NCBI GenBank assembly: GCA_035968315.1
Contig: JAVYIN010000007.1
Location: 404,996 to 468,995 of the forward strand
Length of the DNA stretch: 64,000 nucleotides
From: Nitrospira sp.
GTDB lineage: Bacteria > Nitrospirota > Nitrospiria > Nitrospirales > Nitrospiraceae
Direction of reading: 5' to 3'
The number at the start of each line of letters is the position of its first letter. The first letter of the stretch is position 1. The position numbers and the translations under genes were made by a program. Below the pieces are notes generated by a model. That model saw only the letters and a program-made list of their open reading frames with translations, did not search any database and was not told the origin of the DNA. Of the stretch, positions 7,661 to 17,861 are shown piece by piece.

Positions 7661-7745
7661 AGTTATTCAGCGGAGGGTGAAGGACACGTGAACCGCACGT
7701 ACCCTAGCAGAGTGTGTGCTGGCACGCAACCGGCCCTATACGGAC

Positions 7746-7774
7746 TTGAACCATCAAGTTATCTTGATGTATGA
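7746..7774 (+). promoter_or_regulatory. ArsR operator 1 inside the arsR promoter
   Basis: Inverted repeat ATCAAG-TTAT-CTTGAT (7753-7768), of the ATCAA-N6-TTGAT type bound by ArsR/SmtB repressors. It lies between TTGAAC (7746-7751) and GTATGA (7769-7774), spaced 17 bases, which I read as -35 and -10. Binding would block RNA polymerase until arsenite is sensed. With this promoter, transcription would start near 7781, favouring the ATG at 7782. Confidence 0.75.
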
Positions 7775-7781
7775 ATGGGCG

Positions 7782-8102
7782 ATGCAAAGTGTAGCGGGTA
7801 AGAGTCGGGAAAAAGTTGCCGCAGTATTCTCCGCCTTGGGGGATGAGACGCGGCTTGATATCCTCGCGCAACTGCGCGGCGGCGAGCGTTGTGTCTGCGA
7901 GCTGACCGAGGCCATTCAAACCAGCCAGTCTCGGCTGTCGTTCCATCTCAAAGTCCTGAAGGATGCGGGACTGATCAAGGATCGGCCGGAGGGGCGATGG
8001 ATCTATTACTCGATTCATGCCGGCGCGATGGAGGAGCTTGAAGAGATGGTGCGGCTTTTAAGAGAGGGCGGAAGAGCGTCGCGGGGGACGGCCCGCTGCT
8101 GA
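7782..8102 (+). CDS. arsR: ArsR-family arsenic-responsive repressor
   Basis: Winged-helix ArsR/SmtB repressor, 106 residues from the ATG at 7782; in-frame starts at 7767 (ATG) and 7716 (GTG) are possible, but 7767 overlaps the operator. Visible: AAVFSALGDETRLDILAQL (helix 1-2), ERCVCELTEAI with the CVCEL metal-binding motif in the recognition region, then SQSRLSFHLKVLKDAGLIKDRPEGRWIYYSI (helix-turn-helix and wing). CVC is the classical As(III)/Sb(III) sensor motif of E. coli-type ArsR. It begins the arsR-acr3-arsC operon. Confidence 0.93.
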   Translation: MQSVAGKSREKVAAVFSALGDETRLDILAQLRGGERCVCELTEAIQTSQSRLSFHLKVLKDAGLIKDRPEGRWIYYSIHAGAMEELEEMVRLLREGGRASRGTARC

Positions 8103-8121
8103 ATATTTTTTTACTGTATGT

Positions 8122-8137
8122 ATCAAGAATTCTTGAT
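8122..8137 (+). promoter_or_regulatory. ArsR operator 2 between arsR and acr3
   Basis: Perfect 16-bp palindrome ATCAAGAATTCTTGAT with the same half-sites as the operator before arsR, 7 bases upstream of the acr3 ribosome site. It suggests a second ArsR-controlled promoter or a roadblock separating arsR from the efflux genes. Confidence 0.78.
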
Positions 8138-8155
8138 TCATTGGGAGGAGCGATC

Positions 8156-9247
8156 ATGGAGGTCGTCATAGCTGCCGCACCGCCTGTACCCAAAAAGCGG
8201 CTCAATCTGTTTGAACGGTATCTCACCCTGTGGGTCGGCCTCTGCATGGTGGGCGGTGTGCTGCTCGGCCAAATGGCGCCGGGTATTGTCCAGACGCTCC
8301 GCACCTGGGAGTTCGGCGAGGGGAGTCACATCAATTTCCCGATGGCCGTCCTGATTTGGCTCATGATCATTCCCATGATGATGAAAGTCGATTTCGCGTC
8401 GATCGCACGGGTGCGTGAGCGGCCCACGGGATTGGCGGTCACGCTCTTCGTGAATTGGGTGGTCAAACCCTTCTCAATGGCCCTGTTGGCATGGATCTTT
8501 TTCAAATTCCTGTTTGCTCCGTGGATAGGCCCGGCGGAGGCGGACCAGTACATCGCCGGCTGTATCATCCTGGCGGCGGCCCCCTGCACGGCGATGGTCT
8601 TCGTCTGGAGCTATCTGACGGATGGCGATCCGGCCTATACCCTGGTGCAGGTGTCGGTGAACGATCTCATCATGCTGGTGCTCTTTGCGCCGATCGTGGG
8701 TTTTCTCGTGAGTGGGGCCTCATCCCTCTCCATTCCCGTACCCGTCCTGTTCTATTCCGTACTGGCGTTCATTGTGATTCCATTGGTCATGGGTTCCCTC
8801 GCACGATCATGGCTGGTCCGTCAGCAGGGCGTCCGATGGTTTGAAGCGGAGTGTCTCCCGCGTTTTGCGCCCGTGACGATCATGGCGTTGCTCCTCACTC
8901 TCACCATGATCTTTGCTTTTCAGGCCGACAATATCCTCGCCAAGACCCTCCATGTTGTGTTGATTGCCGTGCCGATTCTTGTGCAAGTGTACTTCAACTC
9001 GTCGCTGGCCTACGGACTGATGAGGTGGTTCCGGGTTCCGTACGCGGTGGCGGCGCCAGGAGCCTTGATCGGGGCGAGTAATTTCTTTGAATTGGCCGTG
9101 GCCACGGCGATCGCCTTATTCGGGCCGGAGTCCGGCGCCGCCTTGGCGACGGTAGTCGGCGTGTTAGTCGAAGTGCCGGTGATGCTCTCGGTGTGCCAGG
9201 TCTGCAATCGCACCAGGCATTGGTTTCCCGCACAGGAGGCCGTATGA
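8156..9247 (+). CDS. acr3: ACR3-family arsenite efflux permease
   Basis: Inner-membrane As(OH)3/H+ antiporter of the bile/arsenite/riboflavin transporter superfamily; 363 residues, about ten hydrophobic helices. The hallmark helix GCIILAAAPCTAMVFVWSYL carries the conserved Cys needed for arsenite transport, followed by DPAYTLVQVSVNDLIML; the later block ALIGASNFFELAVATAIALFG is also family-typical. ATG at 8156 chosen because GGAGGAG (8144-8150) sits 5 bases upstream; an upstream TTG at 8141 has no ribosome site. The stop overlaps arsC by 4 bases (ATGA). Confidence 0.95.
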   Translation: MEVVIAAAPPVPKKRLNLFERYLTLWVGLCMVGGVLLGQMAPGIVQTLRTWEFGEGSHINFPMAVLIWLMIIPMMMKVDFASIARVRERPTGLAVTLFVNWVVKPFSMALLAWIFFKFLFAPWIGPAEADQYIAGCIILAAAPCTAMVFVWSYLTDGDPAYTLVQVSVNDLIMLVLFAPIVGFLVSGASSLSIPVPVLFYSVLAFIVIPLVMGSLARSWLVRQQGVRWFEAECLPRFAPVTIMALLLTLTMIFAFQADNILAKTLHVVLIAVPILVQVYFNSSLAYGLMRWFRVPYAVAAPGALIGASNFFELAVATAIALFGPESGAALATVVGVLVEVPVMLSVCQVCNRTRHWFPAQEAV

Positions 9248-9660
9248 AACCGCGCGTGTTGTTTCTCTGCACGGGCAATTCCGCGCGCAGCCAGATGGCG
9301 GAAGGGTGGCTGCGGCATCTGGCGGGCGATCGCTTCGAAGTGTTCAGCGCGGGCACCCACCCGGTCGGTCTGAATCCCGGCTCAGTAGAGGCCATGGCCG
9401 AAGCCGGGATCGACATTGCCGGGCACCGGTCGAAAGGTGTTGGCGAATTGGCCGGCCAGTCGTTCGACTATGTGGTGACGGTCTGCGACCGGGCGAAGGA
9501 AACCTGCCCGCTCTGGCCGGGCCGAACGACAGTGATTCACTGGAGCTTCGACGATCCGGCGGCTGTGGCCGATGCCGATTTGCGGCGGCAGACATTCCGG
9601 CGGGTGCGCGACGAAATCGCGGAGTCGATTCGTGGATTCCTAAAAGAGCGGCAAGGGTAA
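9244..9660 (+). CDS. arsC: Arsenate reductase, low-molecular-weight phosphatase type
   Basis: 138-residue cytoplasmic ArsC related to low-Mr protein tyrosine phosphatases. The active loop CTGNSARSQMAEG (Cx5R) starts at Cys9, and the redox pair region VTVCDRAKETCPLWPG carries the two further cysteines used to release arsenite through an intramolecular disulfide, the thioredoxin-coupled mechanism. DDPA near residue 104 supplies the catalytic Asp. It converts arsenate to arsenite for ACR3 export. The start codon overlaps the acr3 stop, so translation is coupled. Confidence 0.95.
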   Translation: MKPRVLFLCTGNSARSQMAEGWLRHLAGDRFEVFSAGTHPVGLNPGSVEAMAEAGIDIAGHRSKGVGELAGQSFDYVVTVCDRAKETCPLWPGRTTVIHWSFDDPAAVADADLRRQTFRRVRDEIAESIRGFLKERQG

Positions 9661-9661
9661 A

Positions 9662-10702
9662 CTAAGCGGTGACCGTTCCGCCGCAGGAGGAGCCAGCCCC
9701 TGCCGTGCAGCCATAGCAATGGTTGCGCGTCACGATCGGGCGTCGATTGAGGCGGGTCGGATCGAAGTCGCGGATGTGGGGCGATGTTCCGGAATCCACG
9801 GGCAGATCCAGCATCTGGTTGAAATCGCAATCGAAGAGCTTTCCGTCCCAGCTCACCGATAAGGTATAGCGACACATCACCCCGGCAGCGGCGGCGGGAT
9901 TGAAGGCGTTGGCCAGCCGCTCCATATAGTGCTCATAGTTGCCGCTCTCCACCAGAAACTCCAGAAACCGGCTCACCGGCATGTTCGTGATGGTGTAGAG
10001 GTGGTTGAATTCCACTCCATGTCTGGCGCGCAGTTCTTTCCTGAACTGGGCTTCGACGGCTTCTTGCTTGGGAGGCAGGAAGGCGCCGACCGGATTATGC
10101 ACGAGATTCAAGCGCAAACCGCTGTCAGGCCGGCCGTATCCCAGCCGGTTCAAGAGGCGCAGCGCCTCAATCGACTTCTCGAAAATGCCCTCGCCGCGCT
10201 GTGCGTCGGTCTGGCTCGCCCGGTAATAGGGGAGCGAGGCGACGACTTCCACCCGATGGGCAGCCAGAAAATCGGCGAGGCCTGCCTGCGATGGGACCAG
10301 CAGGATCGAGAGATTGCACCGGTCCATCACCTGCCTGCCGAGTGTACGCGCCTGCTCCACCAGCCAGCGGAAATTCGGGTTCAATTCTGGCGCGCCCCCG
10401 GTGATATCGACCGTCGGAATATCGGTTTGGGCCAGCGCCGCGATGCACAGTTCCGCCGTCTCTCTCGACATGCTCTCGGTCCGGTCCGGTCCCGCATCGA
10501 CGTGGCAGTGTCGGCAGGTTTGATTGCAGAGTTTCCCCAGATTGATTTGGAAGACCGTCATGCCGGTGGCGTGGAGCGGCGACAGCCCAGCCTGCGAGAG
10601 TGTGGCGTCGAAGGCGGGAATGCCGGCCGTCGAGTCCAGAATCCGCAGCTGTTCGACCGAGGAGGCCAGCGGATTCTGACGGCTGAGGAGTGTGAGCGCC
10701 AT
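9662..10702 (-). CDS. arsS: ArsS-like radical SAM enzyme of arsenosugar biosynthesis
   Basis: Radical SAM protein with CNQTCRHC (Cx3Cx2C) binding the 4Fe-4S cluster, followed by HVDAGPDRTE and DITGGAPELNPNFRWLVEQAR, typical of the ArsS group. The C-terminal domain ends in HCYGCTAGAGSSCGG, a Cys-rich tail also seen in this group. ArsS acts after ArsM to transfer a 5'-deoxyadenosyl moiety to a methylated arsenical. ATG at 10702 chosen, 8 bases after the arsM stop; a GTG at 10738 would overlap arsM. 346 residues. It runs tail-to-tail with arsC with a 1-base gap. Confidence 0.9.
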   Translation of the reverse strand: MALTLLSRQNPLASSVEQLRILDSTAGIPAFDATLSQAGLSPLHATGMTVFQINLGKLCNQTCRHCHVDAGPDRTESMSRETAELCIAALAQTDIPTVDITGGAPELNPNFRWLVEQARTLGRQVMDRCNLSILLVPSQAGLADFLAAHRVEVVASLPYYRASQTDAQRGEGIFEKSIEALRLLNRLGYGRPDSGLRLNLVHNPVGAFLPPKQEAVEAQFRKELRARHGVEFNHLYTITNMPVSRFLEFLVESGNYEHYMERLANAFNPAAAAGVMCRYTLSVSWDGKLFDCDFNQMLDLPVDSGTSPHIRDFDPTRLNRRPIVTRNHCYGCTAGAGSSCGGTVTA

Positions 10703-10710
10703 CGGCGTGC

Positions 10711-11898
10711 CTAGCAGCAGCCGCCGCTGGGGGTGCAACTGGTTGCCGCGCCGCCGACCGGCTCGCCGGCCCGATTGAGAATGGCGAAGTGCGGGGCGTA
10801 TCCCTCTGTGGCAAGAACCGTGAGGGTTCTATCGCAGATTTCCTGAGGCTCGCCGCGTCGAAACACATGGTGATCATCGTCCTGCGCTTCCACGAAGGGG
10901 CCGGCCAGCAGGGCGAAATCGCCTTTCCACACGCAGGGTGTTTGTTCAGGCAGCACGGCGGTCCATCGCGGATCGGTCTGGCCGAGCGTGACGGGCTCAG
11001 TCGATAGGATCACGTGCGCGGCAAATGGCGGCTGGCTTAGCAAGAGTGCCGCTTCCGCGGTGAGTGCTTGTGGAATCCCACGCCGATACGTTGTCCCGAG
11101 TTCATCCACCACGCAGCTGAAGGGGCCGCGCAACGTGGCGTAGCGAGTCGTCGGCACACCGGGTGCCTTGGCCAGCTTGTAGCCGGTGAGCGTCACGGAG
11201 AAAAAGTGGATGCCGTCGATCCGCTGCCAGGGCGACGACTTGATCAGATGGATGCCGACAAACCCCGCTTCCGTCATGCCTGCCATATAGTCGGTGAGTG
11301 TCAGGGCGCCGGAGAGGCAGTCGCCCCACTTCTCCGCGTCGTGAACGAGATATTGCGGCACGGGCTGGTCGGCGACGATATCCGAGATCGTGAAGCGCCC
11401 GCCTGGCTTGGCGACGCGGAACATTTCACGGAAGACCTTGCGCTTATCCGGGGCCAGATTGATCACGCAATTGGAGATGATCAAATCAACCGTGCCGTCC
11501 GCTACCGGCATGGCGTCGGCCATGCCTTTCCGGAATTCCACATTGGAGGAGGGATAGCCAAGATTGCCGGCCACGATCACGGCGTTCCGGCGCGCGATCT
11601 CCAGCATCGTATCGGTCATGTCGATCCCGATCACATGGCCGGTCGGGCCGACCAGGCGCGAGGCCTCAAAACAGTCGATGCCGCCGCCGGATCCGATGTC
11701 CAAGACCGTTTCCCCGGCGCGCACCGTTTTCAGTCCGGCCGGCGTGCCGCAGCCATAGGAGATCTTGAGGACTTCCTCGGGGATAAACGATTTGAGATTG
11801 GCCATGTCGTAGCTGGTCGGGCAGCACATCTGCTCGCCAGAACGGGCGGCCTTGGCATAGCGGTCGCTGACTTTCTTCTCGATTTCGTCTATCGGCAT
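10711..11898 (-). CDS. arsM: ArsM arsenite S-adenosylmethionine methyltransferase
   Basis: 395 residues. Class I methyltransferase domain with the SAM motif VLDIGSGGGIDCFEASRLVG near residue 65, a Cys pair in EQMCCPTSYD, and the region SNCVINLAPDKRKVFREMFRVAKPGGRF containing another expected As(III)-binding Cys. The C-terminal third is an extra domain ending CTPSGGCC, longer than minimal ArsM proteins. It methylates arsenite and pairs with ArsS downstream for organoarsenical synthesis. GAGGA ribosome site upstream of the ATG. No ArsR-type palindrome was seen in front of arsM, so its control may differ from the arsR operon. Confidence 0.92.
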   Translation of the reverse strand: MPIDEIEKKVSDRYAKAARSGEQMCCPTSYDMANLKSFIPEEVLKISYGCGTPAGLKTVRAGETVLDIGSGGGIDCFEASRLVGPTGHVIGIDMTDTMLEIARRNAVIVAGNLGYPSSNVEFRKGMADAMPVADGTVDLIISNCVINLAPDKRKVFREMFRVAKPGGRFTISDIVADQPVPQYLVHDAEKWGDCLSGALTLTDYMAGMTEAGFVGIHLIKSSPWQRIDGIHFFSVTLTGYKLAKAPGVPTTRYATLRGPFSCVVDELGTTYRRGIPQALTAEAALLLSQPPFAAHVILSTEPVTLGQTDPRWTAVLPEQTPCVWKGDFALLAGPFVEAQDDDHHVFRRGEPQEICDRTLTVLATEGYAPHFAILNRAGEPVGGAATSCTPSGGCC

Positions 11899-12328
11899 CG
11901 TGTCCTCATCATGGGGATGGTCTAGGGAATGCGATTATGTACCAACCCCTCCCGATCTGCGTCAACCGGGAGCTGATGGATGTGGCGGGAATCATGGGGG
12001 TAAAGACACCCACTGAGCACCACCCTCGGCCAGTACCGCGACGAGAGGTTCAGCCGCATGCCAGGCCGGACGATAATGATCGTGAATCAGGGGTGAGGAA
12101 GCTGGTTGGACAAATCACTCGTACGGACAATGGGTGAGACTGAAAGACGGTGAAGAAGGAGAGGGTGTAAATAGATTGCGAGCCTGTCGTTCGCAGCCCT
12201 AACGTATTTGAATTCTGCCCCGTATTGCGACTCCGCTAAATTTGAGAAAACTCCCAGAGGATCGCCATCTAACTAATCCTACCGCTTCGCATGATTTCTC
12301 GCGTTGAATAGCGTATGTTTCCCCTAGA
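11899..12328. other. Intergenic region at the edge of the accessory island
   Basis: 430 bases between divergent arsM and the SIR2 gene. Base composition shifts to AT-richer from about 12170 onward, marking the island boundary. A 66-codon frame at 11937-12137 has no ribosome site or recognisable domain. No tRNA, direct repeat or integrase site was recognised. Confidence 0.4.
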
Positions 12329-13330
12329 ATGAGTGACGATATCCTTCCCATACCTCGCATTCCTGAGGGGCTCCGTGAGGCTGCTCAGCGAGGCGTCTTG
12401 ATACCGTTCATTGGTGCAGGCGCCGCACGAATCGCAGGCTGTCCTGGCTGGTCAGAGTTTGCTGACGGAGCACTTCGACATTTTATTGATCAAGGAAAAT
12501 TTTCTCATAAACAACTGGCTCAAATTTCCCATCTGAATCCACGAGTAAAGTTGTCGATCGCTTTAGGACTCGAAAAGGAGCATGCGACCCATATCGATTT
12601 TCGTAAACTATTGCACCCGTCAGGAAAGAAAGACCACATTAAGGGGCGGAAGCTTTTTGCGAGTCTGTCCAAACTTGGAAAGACATTTGTTACGACCAAC
12701 TATGACGAATGGCTTGATGAAGAGATCGATTTGCCCCCAGTTGCTGCAGTGGTCGCATTCGGCCCAGCAGCGCCAGCCACTACGAACACACGGACCGTTA
12801 TTCATAAAGTTCATGACCTGACGCTGGCTAATCTCAATAAACCTAATACGGTTATCCATCTCCATGGCTCATTGGTAAACCCCGATGGCATGATCCTGAC
12901 TACGCAACACTATGTGCGTCATTATGCCAATGACAGGCTTTCCGGAAATGCTGAGAAGGAAAATCGAGTCCTGACTTTTCTCGAGCATCTCTTCAATGAA
13001 AAAACCGTTTTATTTGTTGGTTATGGCTTGGAAGAACTCGAGATCCTCGAATATGTCATCCTTAAGGCTCAACGCCCTCCTGGTGGGGTGCCACATGAGG
13101 CAAAGCACTACATTCTTCAAGGCTTCTATTCCCATGAACATGAATTAATGCGTAGCCTTACACGATACTATCTTGATGAATGCGGGATTCAGCTCATTCC
13201 GTTTCTTCGGGACAACAAGGACTGGGATCAGCTCCTAGAAGTCTTAGAGGAATTCGCACGCACTGCTCCTGCATCAAACCTGCAATTCTTGCAAGAGTTC
13301 AAGGAGATGGGGGAGCTTCTGAATGACTAA
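12329..13330 (+). CDS. SIR2-like NAD-binding domain protein, putative defence effector
   Basis: 333 residues. The SIR2-like motifs are complete: IPFIGAGAARIAG (Gly-rich NAD loop, residues 25-37), TTNYD (122-126, with the Asn needed for NAD hydrolysis in defence sirtuins), HLHG (177-180, catalytic His of the HG pair) and LFVGYGLEELEIL. No membrane segment or signal peptide. Many SIR2-like proteins in bacteria deplete NAD+ on phage infection (Thoeris ThsA, DSR, short-Argonaute partners), so an NADase effector is plausible. The stop overlaps the next ORF by 8 bases, indicating a two-gene unit. Codon use is visibly AT-richer than the flanking arsenic genes, a sign of transfer. No clear Shine-Dalgarno at this start. 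Confidence 0.82.
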   Translation: MSDDILPIPRIPEGLREAAQRGVLIPFIGAGAARIAGCPGWSEFADGALRHFIDQGKFSHKQLAQISHLNPRVKLSIALGLEKEHATHIDFRKLLHPSGKKDHIKGRKLFASLSKLGKTFVTTNYDEWLDEEIDLPPVAAVVAFGPAAPATTNTRTVIHKVHDLTLANLNKPNTVIHLHGSLVNPDGMILTTQHYVRHYANDRLSGNAEKENRVLTFLEHLFNEKTVLFVGYGLEELEILEYVILKAQRPPGGVPHEAKHYILQGFYSHEHELMRSLTRYYLDECGIQLIPFLRDNKDWDQLLEVLEEFARTAPASNLQFLQEFKEMGELLND

Positions 13331-16199
13331 GCTCACGGCAAAACAAGAATCGTTCATCGCCCTTATGCTCAAGAGCGAAGAGCATGCGCGTAGAGGCTTC
13401 GATGTTCTCCTTGCGCGGCCTGGATACGAAAAGCTGTTCGACGCTCTTGAAGAAGCGGGGCTTTTTAATCCAAGTCGTAACCCTGCCCCTATTCCTGCAG
13501 GAGAGCCTGGGTACGTTCGAATCCCTTACTGGGATGCTCTAGATTATCTTGAAGCCGTTGCAAAGTTGTCTGGCGAGAGGAACGATATTCATCTTGCCGA
13601 AAATGTGTTGGCGGTTGTCAAAACTGTTAGCGAAGCCTTTGAAGAAAATCCGAGTACCCGTGACAACTACCATACAAATCGAAAGTTTGCTGAAATTCTC
13701 GGTTTTGTTCCGACGACTACCATTACGGAGGCTCACCTCAGTTTTATTCCTGAATGGCTTGAAGGGAAATATGATCAAGGCATGGTTTGTCACGCTCTCA
13801 GTAAGGGGGCAATGCATCGCTTTCTGGGAAGCCAGTCACCTGACGATTGGATCAAAGCATGCACCATCCTTCGTTACTGCACCGCCGTTATTTGGATCGA
13901 TGAAGCAGCCCTTGGAGAGAAACGCAAGCGGCCGGCGACGGTTACTGAAGACCACTGGTTAAAAGAACTAATTAACCACCACACCAAAGAATTGGGCAGG
14001 CGAGCCGGGAAGCTTTCCGCTGAAATTCTTCTCGATCGCCTCCGTGAAGTATTCGACCAACAACGCCGAAATGTTCCGAGTTGGCTACATCGTCCAGCGG
14101 TTGAAGACAACGCTCAAAACCATGAATGGCTTGGACCTGAAAATCGATTTGTAGATGGCCTCCGCGATGTCCTGCTGAGCTGGGTCGATAGTGATACATC
14201 AACAGCCAAACCATTCATCGAAAAACTGCTGACTGATACGTCAGAGATGGTTCGCCGCATCGGAATCTATGTCATAGGTCAAAGATGGGAAATCTTAGGG
14301 CAGCTATACAGCCCTCTTGTTCACGAAAATTTTTTCACAGACGGTCACCTACATGAACTCTACTGTCTCCTAAAAAACCAGTTTGAGTCATTTAGCGCCT
14401 CTGCCAAGGCCTCGACTATTGAAGCCATTCGACACCTCGAACAGGCGACAACAGACGAAGAGCATCTGCGACAGCTAAAGCGAGTTCAGCGGAAGTGGCT
14501 TTCTGCTGTCATAGGGAAAGGCTACGAACCTGCGGACCAATGGTTTAAGAGCCTGATGACAGAGCATGATCTCGGCGGTGTGTCCGAGCATCCAGAATTT
14601 CATTCCTATATGGAAATTCAGCGTGGACCAGGTCCATCTCCATATCAGGTTCAGGAACTGCTCGCTTTTGCAGAACTTGGGAGCGTTGTTGAAGAGTTAA
14701 ATAGTTTTCAGGAATTGGACACATGGCGAGGCCCGACCGTACGTGCGCTTGTGGATTCGTTGGAGGAAGCCGTAATACTTGCCCCTACTACGTTTCTCAA
14801 GCTGCTACCAAAATTCGTTTCTGCGAAGCGTCCATTTCAATTCGGAGTCATTGAGGGATTTAGGCGTCTCTGGATTGATGCCGATCAAACCAGTCAGTCT
14901 ATTGACTGGAACACAGCCTGGGAAGAACTGATTCGTTTCTTCGAGCAACTGATCCAAACATCTGACTTCTGGACTGAACAAGTTATCGAAGATCACAACA
15001 GGACACCAAATCGAGACTGGATTCCTCCGGCAATCGCTGATTGCATTAAAGCCGGAACACGGAGTGACAACAAAGCTTACTCTCCATCCTTATTATCTAG
15101 AACATGGGCGCTTCTGCAAATTTTGCTTGATAAGTTAGAGTACATACAGGATGCCCCCAGGTCCGATGCAACGAATCAAACTATCAATTGGCCTAGAGGA
15201 AAGGCGATTGAAGCTCTGTTTATTCACGCTCTCAGAGAATGTCGTGTAGGCGATCAGACTCGGAAGGAGCACTCAGGCGTTTGGGAAATCATGAAGCCCA
15301 CTTTTGATGCTCAACTTGCCAAATGTCAGAACGCGAATTTCGAATTTTCAACCATGGCAGGGAATTATCTTCCCAATCTGGAATACATGGCCCCCGAATG
15401 GCTTCGGGTTAACATCGGAAGAATATTTCCATCCACCTTTCGCGACAATCTCAAATGCGCGCTCGATGGTCTGGCCTATACGACAGTTTCCGATTCACTG
15501 TATGACCAGCTTGTTAAAAGTGGCGTGATTGAGTTGGCTCTCTGTGATCAAGACACGGACAGACGTGTTCGAGAGAGACTCATCGAACGAATATCCCTAG
15601 CTTATATTTCGGGCAATGAGCAGCTCGACTCACCAATATTTGGCTACCTATTCCAACCACAACACCTTGAAGATCTCCAGGATGCATGCGGTTGTTTTTG
15701 GGACATCAGAGAGGAGCAGTTATCGCCAGAACACATTGCACGAATACTCCAATTCTGGGATCGCTGTGTAGGATGGAGTCGTGGCCTCCCCACTCCCCCA
15801 ACAGCACTCCTATCCAGCCTGAGCAGATTGAGTTGTTATCTTCAAGGTTTGGGCTCACGAGAAACAGAATGGCTACTTGCCGTCGCGCCCCATGTGAAGG
15901 TTAATTACAATTATGATTTCTTCCTGGAAGAGCTTGATAGATTGGTGGATACCAACCCTACTGAGGTCAGCACTGTCATGAAGGCCTTCCTTGATTCATA
16001 CCTGCCAGATTACGATTTCGAGGACAGACTCAAGTCAATAATCAGGAAGCTTGCTCAACTTGGAAAGCGACAAGATGCGATTAACTATGCGGAGAAACTT
16101 AGGCACCTTTCTGGCATGCTTGAGCTATACACGAATTTGGGAGAAATAGCGGGGAAACGTCAACGTGGACTCAATGTGGAAGAGTCAAAAAGTGGCTAA
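13323..16199 (+). CDS. Large protein of unknown function coupled to the SIR2 gene
   Basis: 958 residues, predominantly predicted helical, with no P-loop, HKD, nuclease or membrane motif that I can recognise. Helical-repeat-like texture throughout (for example SEMVRRIGIYVIGQRW near residue 310, and NWPRGKAIEALFIHALREC then MAGNYLPNLEYMAPEWL in the third quarter), suggesting a scaffold or sensor. The C terminus (DAINYAEKLRHLSGMLELYTNLGEIAGK) looks TPR-like. Overlaps the SIR2 gene by 8 bases, so translation is coupled and the products probably act together, with this one sensing and SIR2 as effector (inference). It may belong to the DUF4020-type partners of SIR2 genes, but I cannot confirm that. 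AT-rich like its partner. Confidence 0.8.
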   Translation: MTKLTAKQESFIALMLKSEEHARRGFDVLLARPGYEKLFDALEEAGLFNPSRNPAPIPAGEPGYVRIPYWDALDYLEAVAKLSGERNDIHLAENVLAVVKTVSEAFEENPSTRDNYHTNRKFAEILGFVPTTTITEAHLSFIPEWLEGKYDQGMVCHALSKGAMHRFLGSQSPDDWIKACTILRYCTAVIWIDEAALGEKRKRPATVTEDHWLKELINHHTKELGRRAGKLSAEILLDRLREVFDQQRRNVPSWLHRPAVEDNAQNHEWLGPENRFVDGLRDVLLSWVDSDTSTAKPFIEKLLTDTSEMVRRIGIYVIGQRWEILGQLYSPLVHENFFTDGHLHELYCLLKNQFESFSASAKASTIEAIRHLEQATTDEEHLRQLKRVQRKWLSAVIGKGYEPADQWFKSLMTEHDLGGVSEHPEFHSYMEIQRGPGPSPYQVQELLAFAELGSVVEELNSFQELDTWRGPTVRALVDSLEEAVILAPTTFLKLLPKFVSAKRPFQFGVIEGFRRLWIDADQTSQSIDWNTAWEELIRFFEQLIQTSDFWTEQVIEDHNRTPNRDWIPPAIADCIKAGTRSDNKAYSPSLLSRTWALLQILLDKLEYIQDAPRSDATNQTINWPRGKAIEALFIHALRECRVGDQTRKEHSGVWEIMKPTFDAQLAKCQNANFEFSTMAGNYLPNLEYMAPEWLRVNIGRIFPSTFRDNLKCALDGLAYTTVSDSLYDQLVKSGVIELALCDQDTDRRVRERLIERISLAYISGNEQLDSPIFGYLFQPQHLEDLQDACGCFWDIREEQLSPEHIARILQFWDRCVGWSRGLPTPPTALLSSLSRLSCYLQGLGSRETEWLLAVAPHVKVNYNYDFFLEELDRLVDTNPTEVSTVMKAFLDSYLPDYDFEDRLKSIIRKLAQLGKRQDAINYAEKLRHLSGMLELYTNLGEIAGKRQRGLNVEESKSG

Positions 16200-16395
16200 T
16201 CAACTCGTTTTTACCTGTTTATTCCCCGCAATGAGTACAATTACTTTCGGCGGATGTGAAAACATGGGTAGGCAGAATAAGAGACGGGATGCATGATGAA
16301 TGCGAAAAGCGTCTGTCAGGTCTTTCAGCTTCTGTAGTCTCGATACCTGGTAGGATTTGGCTCTATGGCCTGCTGCCGGTTTAGTTGACACCATC
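16200..16395. other. Short non-coding gap between the 958-residue gene and the IS3 remnant
   Basis: 196 bases; a 64-codon minus-strand frame has no ribosome site. The last 15 bases (TTGACACCATCCTAC) abut the transposase remnant and could hold one end of the former insertion sequence, but no matching inverted end was found. Confidence 0.3.
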
Positions 16396-16618
16396 CTACG
16401 CTAATTCCGCCTGTCGTTCGAACTCCATTGGACTGAGATACCCCAATGTGGAGTGCCGCCGACGGGGATTGTAAAACCGCTCGATGTAATCGAACACATC
16501 GGCTTTCGCCTGGTCTCGCGTGTGGTACAGCGTTCGCGCGGTACGTTCGGTCTTCAGCGAGGAGAAGAAGCTCTCCATCGCGGCGTTGTCCCAGCAGTTG
16601 CCGGAGCGGCTCATGCTA
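16396..16618 (-). pseudogene. IS3-family transposase OrfB, C-terminal remnant
   Basis: About 72 codons matching the end of an IS3-group integrase: SMSRSGNCWDNAAMESFFSSLKTE, with the last Glu of the DDE triad in AMESFF, then FDYIERFYNPRRRHSTLGYLSPMEFE. The normal protein is about 280 residues; homology stops abruptly near 16618 where an unrelated sequence begins, so the element is truncated and inactive. It sits between the SIR2 unit and a toxin-antitoxin pair and marks past transposition here. Confidence 0.88.
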
Positions 16619-16705
16619 CAGCTGAATATAAGGGGTCGGATACCTTTGTTCGCACAAAACCATGCGGAGACGGACAGCGCATGGGGAGGTTCTCTTCTAG
16701 TCTGA

Positions 16706-17017
16706 CTATGCCGCGCCTTTGCGCGGCTCTTGGTGCAGCGCCTCGGCGACGGCGCGCGGATTGCGCGCGGCTACACGGAGGAGGGCCAGCGCCGGGCCGT
16801 CTGGCGTCCGTCGGCCTTGCTCCCAGTTGCGAAGAGTAGCCACGCTGACGCCGATCATGAGGGCGAATTCAGTCTGTGAGGCCTTGAGCGTCTTTCGAAC
16901 GCTCTTCACATCGGCCGGTCGAAACGTGGTGACTCGGCCGGGCTTCAAGGTGCCGCGCCGGATGCGTCCTGCCTGTCGGATGCTGGTAAGTAGCTCTTCG
17001 AATGCTGCCTCTTTCAT
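16706..17017 (-). CDS. XRE/HigA-type antitoxin with helix-turn-helix
   Basis: 103 residues. The helix-turn-helix lies at about 38-95: VKSVRKTLKASQTEFALMIGVSVATLRNWEQGRRTPDGPALALLRVAARNP. This matches the NadS/HigA antitoxin group. The preceding 35 residues probably contact the toxin. The start overlaps the upstream toxin stop by 4 bases. In such pairs the antitoxin represses its own promoter; here that is inferred. The gene order (toxin first) is that of higBA. Confidence 0.85.
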   Translation of the reverse strand: MKEAAFEELLTSIRQAGRIRRGTLKPGRVTTFRPADVKSVRKTLKASQTEFALMIGVSVATLRNWEQGRRTPDGPALALLRVAARNPRAVAEALHQEPRKGAA

Positions 17018-17331
17018 GTGAACTCCTCCCGAACAAGTGTGGCAAGGGTCTTGATTTGTGCCGGCGTCAAGTCGTCTTGCTCGTTCTTCGCATACAGATA
17101 CAACATATAAAAGACTTCACTTCCTCGTTCCCAATAATAGATGAGGCGAACGCCGCCTCGTTTCCCTCGGCCAGGAGCTGCCCAGCGGAGTTTGCGCAGC
17201 CCTGCTCCGCCCTTGATGAGTGCGCCCTGTGTAGGCCTGAGCAGCAGTGCTACCTGAAGCGCACGATACGTGTCATCGTCCAAATGCCGCCGAAGGATGG
17301 CGGTAAAGACCGGAGTTTCGATGAACCGCAT
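17014..17331 (-). CDS. RelE/HigB-type toxin
   Basis: 105 residues of the RelE/HigB mRNA-interferase fold: LIKGGAGLRKLRWAAPGRGKRGGVRLIYYWERGSEVFYMLYLYAKNEQDDLTPAQIKTL, where the GKRGGVRLIYY and LYAKNEQDDLT blocks are typical of NadS-linked or YgjN/HigB toxins. Expected to cut mRNA on the ribosome when free of the antitoxin encoded downstream. A weak promoter-like TTGCAC/TACCAT pair lies just upstream, leaving almost no leader. It sits in the same accessory island as the SIR2 unit. Confidence 0.85.
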   Translation of the reverse strand: MRFIETPVFTAILRRHLDDDTYRALQVALLLRPTQGALIKGGAGLRKLRWAAPGRGKRGGVRLIYYWERGSEVFYMLYLYAKNEQDDLTPAQIKTLATLVREEFT

Positions 17332-17498
17332 GATGTTTATGGTACGTCAATGGCGTATATTCGTGCAAGGGATTAGACTGCGAGATTTGTGCGCGCAGGG
17401 GCCTGGCTGGGGCGATAGCTGTCTCTGGTTGCCGGTCGGTCTTGTCTTTCTGGTGGCTGACGACGGGATAGACCGAAGAGACCAGACAGACTCAGCCC

Positions 17499-17861
17499 TC
17501 ACGCCCGCTTGCTCCGCCACCACCATCCATAGATCGTCAGATTCACGGCGACGACTATCGCGCCAAGGATCAGTTGGATATCCTGTGTGAGTGCCTCCGG
17601 GTAGAGAATGGGCACGACATAGCGGATGATGAAGTCTCCTTCATGGCCGCCCTCGCCCCCCTGCGTTCGCAGCCAATTCTCCAACGGCGTCAGCGGGCAG
17701 ATCCAGCCGCTGAATTCGATGAACGCGCCCCAGGCCACTGCCGGCAGGTGCAGCCACATGATTCGTGGCCATTTCAGGACCAAGAGCCCGCCGAGCAGTA
17801 CGAAGAGCACAAAGCTGAGGTGCAGGAGGACGACGAGATCGGCAGCAAGTCGATAGAGCAT
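17499..17861 (-). CDS. DUF2784 membrane protein
   Basis: 120 residues with three to four hydrophobic helices: ADLVVLLHLSFVLFVLLGGLLVL, the conserved WLHLPAVAWGAFIEFSGWICPLTPLENWLR block, and a C-terminal LILGAIVVAVNLTIYGWWW. That central block is the DUF2784 signature. Role unknown; inner-membrane location is clear. The ATG at 17861 begins just before the membrane region; the open frame extends upstream into the DUF488 gene without a better start. Last gene of a seven-gene minus-strand run. Confidence 0.85.
   Translation of the reverse strand: MLYRLAADLVVLLHLSFVLFVLLGGLLVLKWPRIMWLHLPAVAWGAFIEFSGWICPLTPLENWLRTQGGEGGHEGDFIIRYVVPILYPEALTQDIQLILGAIVVAVNLTIYGWWWRSKRA

Follow-up and report, generated by a model that had tools for sequence, protein, structure and literature searches.

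The locus examined here lies in a 64-kb stretch (the window) of a 3.1-Mb Nitrospira genome, where a gene for a SIR2-family protein is directly followed by one for a much larger helical protein, and it raises the question of which kind of system the two genes form. Profile comparison indicated that the window holds a split, two-gene DSR1-like SIR2 system. The pair is genuine and very probably involved in defence. Coordinates of the features are collected in Table 1.

Table 1. Features of the window and of homologous loci (locus names precede coordinates outside the window).
Feature	Position	Strand	Details
Predicted SIR2-family NADase subunit	12329..13330	+	333 aa; GAG 29-31, N124/D126, H179
All-helical HEAT-like solenoid subunit	13323..16199	+	958 aa; counterpart of the C-terminal, putative sensor half of DSR1
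Coupling junction	13310..13330	+	GGGGAG 7 nt 5' of the second start codon; 8-nt overlap ATGACTAA
IS3 transposase C-terminal remnant, 72-aa ORF	16396..16614	-	rve_2, 1.4e-15; NCBIfam transpos_IS3, 2.7e-26, positions 305-369 of 369 only
NadS/HTH antitoxin	16706..17017	-	NCBIfam NadS, 75 bits (cut-off of 60 exceeded)
RelE-family toxin	17014..17331	-	Pfam RelE, 1.2e-08 (cut-off exceeded)
Variable segment	12092..17515	.	Not in the closest sister genome found, G397 (~60 bp there)
Pairs within type I restriction-modification clusters	L026:2193-12727; L028:3995-14433; L029:5271-18681		
Helical partner as separate gene	L013, L040, L042, L044, L048, L049, L056, L057		
Helical partner, fused	L039, L041, L045, L046, L050		
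Helical partner, upstream gene incomplete in the fetched stretch	L012		

The ORFs read from the sequence, encoding a 333-aa SIR2 protein and a 958-aa protein, were found to share 8 nt (ATGACTAA), in agreement with the overlap of the SIR2 stop with the larger gene that had been noticed originally. A ribosome-binding motif and a start codon were located at this overlap. The RNA of the junction showed no unusual fold (z = 0.13), and scans for promoters and terminators returned fewer hits than were obtained from shuffled sequence. The pairing is far beyond chance, as its gene order and coupling recur among the many homologues of the two proteins.

Comparison of the SIR2 protein to Pfam gave a match to SIR2_2 (2e-16), while the PADLOC Dsr1 model PDLC04166 was matched over profile positions 5-302 (1.3e-51). 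The glycine-rich loop, TTNYD and HLHG motifs that had been noticed originally were all located, as GAG at residues 29-31, TTNYD with N124 and D126, and HLHG with H179. Among 21 homologous SIR2 proteins G29, G31, N124 and H179 were invariant, and D126 was nearly so. A profile of the protein also matched the solved structures of DSR2 (1.5e-15), KomC and ThsA, and its TTNYD and H-G motifs stand in register with the catalytic motifs TTNYD (N133) and H-G (H171) of the DSR2 structures. In DSR2, the NADase is less active when Y134, D135 or H171 is mutated (PMC11263360).

The 958-aa protein matched the same PADLOC model over positions 316-1202 (5.7e-95). Its AlphaFold2 model (mean pLDDT 87, pTM 0.54) was almost entirely helical, bearing out the helical character first proposed for it. 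Foldseek returned CAND1/importin-type HEAT solenoids as the top matches, with TM-scores of 0.14-0.37 among the 50 best; because these scores are low, only a general fold class is claimed. No specific structural relative is named, the matches being to generic HEAT solenoids, and the label of sensor for this protein therefore rests on analogy. Searches by sequence against solved structures, DSR2 included, found no match, even with a profile of 18 sequences, and no homologue of the large protein was found among phages and viral contigs. The suggestion that Pfam DUF4020 might be involved was discarded, as neither window protein matched this family at E-values up to 1.

The two window proteins thus tile PDLC04166 (SIR2 5-302, large protein 316-1202), and a fused 1242-aa protein of Ornithinibacillus matches this model end to end with 1750 bits. 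For these reasons the window genes are taken to encode one half each of a DSR1-type protein. The order is the same as in DSR1, a SIR2 half followed by a large helical half, and the traits of membership are present in the pair, namely a SIR2 domain with the Asn/His catalytic residues (GAG, N124, H179) and, in the 958-aa protein, the large C-terminal helical region. DSR1 is a single polypeptide, however, and has been described in the literature as a single-gene system (PMC10973363), whereas the window has two overlapping ORFs in a layout conserved across relatives. Furthermore, the NCBIfam Dsr1 equivalog model (NF041818) has a cut-off of 1400 bits, which was not reached by the SIR2 protein (16.6 bits), while the large protein gave no hit; nor was it reached by two fused relatives, L006 (80 bits) and L034 (64 bits). 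The pair is consequently filed as a split DSR1-like variant and not as DSR1 proper. Since it equals DSR1 in two genes, the pairing itself is not new in content. The original prediction of an undescribed pairing thus did not hold for the proteins, which correspond to the halves of a catalogued system, but did so for their arrangement: to our knowledge, neither the stable two-gene form nor the exchange of partners found in distant relatives has been described within the literature searched.

Other SIR2 systems resemble the pair in part. DSR2 shares the SIR2 fold with aligned catalytic residues and possesses a helical HEAT-type sensor region, but it is one chain of 1005 aa (structures 8k98, 8wyb and others), and the 958-aa protein matched neither the Dsr2 models nor the DSR2 chains. 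The closest two-gene SIR2 system in the literature, among those compared, is Nezha (SIR2-HerA), which likewise combines a SIR2 NADase with a large partner. This partner is the ATPase HerA, while the 958-aa protein matched no ATPase family in the Pfam and PADLOC searches. Thoeris has a related SIR2 NADase domain in ThsA, but its ThsB is a TIR-domain partner, and no TIR match was found for the 958-aa protein in the same searches.

Searches covered 396 genomes of the phylum, 85,462 species genomes and plasmids. A SIR2 gene directly followed by the large gene was identified at 29 loci, the window included, from Nitrospirota, Pseudomonadota, Myxococcota, Zixiibacteriota, Bacteroidota, Omnitrophota, Planctomycetota and others. 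Within the phylum sample the large protein was present in 13 of the 396 genomes, and a genome of the same genus (G165) also carries the pair. Overlapping genes were seen in most of the 29 pairs. The overlap amounts to 8 nt in the window and close relatives of its pair, but to 4 nt in many others, so that the second gene lies in different frames across lineages. Fused forms were found at L006, L034 and L010 (the last interrupted). In a maximum-likelihood tree fused L006 was sister to split L009 with support of 100/100, and the positions of the two fused rows placed require two separate changes. The split form is real and old. The large gene was also seen to be broken by stops or frameshifts at L010, L022, L025 and L035, through decay or assembly errors.

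In the window the pair is part of a 5.4-kb variable segment, as the closest sister genome found (G397) is without positions 12092-17515 and has the same flanks, 79-88% identical. In a blastn comparison of the window with G397 (L087), homology stopped at 11970 and restarted at 17516, apart from a 78-bp remnant (12014-12091) at the edge of the segment, left from the last part of a Crp/Fnr-like gene that is intact in G397 (L087:15227-15928). The features originally reported around the pair were all recovered: the adjoining ORF corresponds to the C-terminal end of an IS3 transposase, the toxin-antitoxin pair is of the NadS/RelE type, and the GC content is lower over 12.0-16.5 kb (0.47-0.49) than in the flanks (0.57-0.64). 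An arsenic-type cluster, assigned by eye and common to G397, flanks the segment at 7716-11898, with an ArsR-like regulator, an Acr3-like pump, an ArsC-like phosphatase, a radical SAM protein and an ArsM-like methyltransferase.

A survey of the neighbourhoods of homologues, as had been proposed at the outset, placed type I restriction-modification genes beside the pairs of L026, L028 and L029. At these loci the pair begins a few nucleotides after the end of hsdS, with hsdM before hsdS and hsdR nearby, and in L028 an LA2681-type HEPN gene lies 2 nt after the large gene. Restriction-modification neighbours were thus present at three of 15 loci, as a raw count. Fused L034 was found near a GmrSD-type restriction gene and the pair of a Vibrio plasmid near a gene for a SLATT-domain protein. 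Phage-integrase proteins accounted for four of the 114 neighbours scanned.

Distant homologues of the large protein that lack SIR2 were identified at 14 loci (HMM E-values of 1e-44 to 1e-75), with scores of up to 188 bits against PDLC04166. At nine of these, a gene for a protein of ~240 aa lies 5' of the large gene, usually overlapping it, and at the remaining five an equivalent region of ~200 aa is fused at the N-terminus. These helical partners share H58, R61, E62, W168 and H180 (L044 numbering) in the motif H-x2-R-E ... W ... H, with H58 invariant and the others nearly so, and neither GAG nor TTN was found in them. The partner was predicted to be all-helical in a model of moderate quality (pLDDT 75), for which Foldseek found nothing significant, and the PADLOC catalogue does not hold this type. 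Weak matches to Pfam pP_pnuc_1 were obtained for four of 13 members (best E-value 0.0016), some of them below the curated cut-off, and this likeness is only a lead. Among 76 Nitrospira genomes the partner family occurred three times, each time beside the large gene. The large protein of L043, L047, L051 and L052 is paired with a more distant SIR2 protein, outside the main DSR1-like clade, and in the two tested (L043 and L052) this SIR2 scored best against ThsA models. The maximum-likelihood tree separated the main SIR2 clade from a clade with the helical partner and the ThsA-like SIR2 (100/100). The simplest interpretation is that partners have been exchanged on a shared scaffold, and the helical partner is a candidate new effector family. 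The chances are evenly balanced that in the DSR1 family the large HEAT-like protein senses infection in general and can work with different effectors, SIR2 in one clade and the ~240-aa helical partner in the distant one, each either split or fused, and that the latter is a new type of effector, possibly a nuclease.

Two explanations would trace the two ORFs back to one gene or one product. A DSR1 gene split by a frameshift, through mutation or assembly error, would make the window a pseudogene; the ORFs do form one continuous PDLC04166 profile and fused relatives (L006, L034) exist. This was rejected as extremely unlikely, being contradicted by conservation of the layout across 29 loci of many phyla, including a closed plasmid of Vibrio coralliilyticus on which the annotation shows two genes that overlap by 8 nt. 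In addition, both ORFs are otherwise intact and GGGGAG precedes the second start. Overlapping ORFs that together make up one profile would also fit programmed ribosomal frameshifting, by which a full-length DSR1-like fusion would be made. The different frames of the second gene among relatives, with overlaps of 4 nt in some lineages and 8 nt in others, argue against frameshifting as well as against error, and frameshifting was set aside as very unlikely given also the ordinary fold of the junction RNA and the start signals at the overlap.

Accepting two subunits, their role could be other than defence against phage. That the pair shares a small variable segment with an adjacent toxin-antitoxin pair would suit a toxin-antitoxin-like function in guarding that segment, with the large protein serving as antitoxin to SIR2 and not as a phage sensor. 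This is unlikely, as a solenoid of 958 aa is far bigger than usual antitoxins, its domain is fused to SIR2 in some relatives and accompanied by non-SIR2 partners in others, and its homologue in Dsr1 is the C-terminal half of that protein. Membership of the SIR2 superfamily would likewise permit a true protein deacylase with the large protein as adaptor in a housekeeping role. Here the match to SIR2_2 and those to SIR2 proteins of the NADase type (DSR2, KomC, ThsA) speak against it, as do the sporadic distribution of the large protein in the phylum and the absence of the segment from G397, and there is hardly any likelihood left for such a role.

The preferred reading is that the pair is probably a two-gene DSR1-like abortive-infection system in which a solenoid sensor would activate a SIR2 NADase. 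The defence role originally proposed for an NADase with a coupled helical partner is upheld by the identity with the Dsr1 profile, the conserved catalytic residues, the homologues in restriction-modification operons and the variable insertion. Translational coupling through the 8-nt overlap would ensure joint production of both subunits, and the 958-aa solenoid would act as sensor and regulator, keeping the SIR2 NADase, a separate subunit, inactive within a complex. In DSR2, the tail tube protein binds the C-terminal HEAT-repeat region and switches the NADase on (PMC11263360). Following this precedent, the solenoid may bind a structural protein that the phage produces late in infection, upon which SIR2 would be activated, NAD+ hydrolysed and phage production stopped. 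The analysis directly supports the gene structure and its coupling, the homology to the two parts of Dsr1, the intactness of the catalytic residues, the stability of the split form and the defence-type setting, while complex formation, the phage trigger, the loss of NAD+ and the direction of control are inferred by analogy. According to a review, the cell survives when phage is stopped by DSR1, in contrast to DSR2 (PMC10952713), so the term abortive may not hold for the window system.

DSR1 has so far been handled as one protein, and the split form now separates its halves. Owing to this natural split, effector and sensor could be expressed separately and the control of SIR2 examined by mixing the subunits. 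Single-gene models would miss or half-annotate split systems of this kind. The exchange of partners points to a defence family that is defined by the large domain and is wider than DSR1, and such a family would include at least one effector absent from PADLOC.
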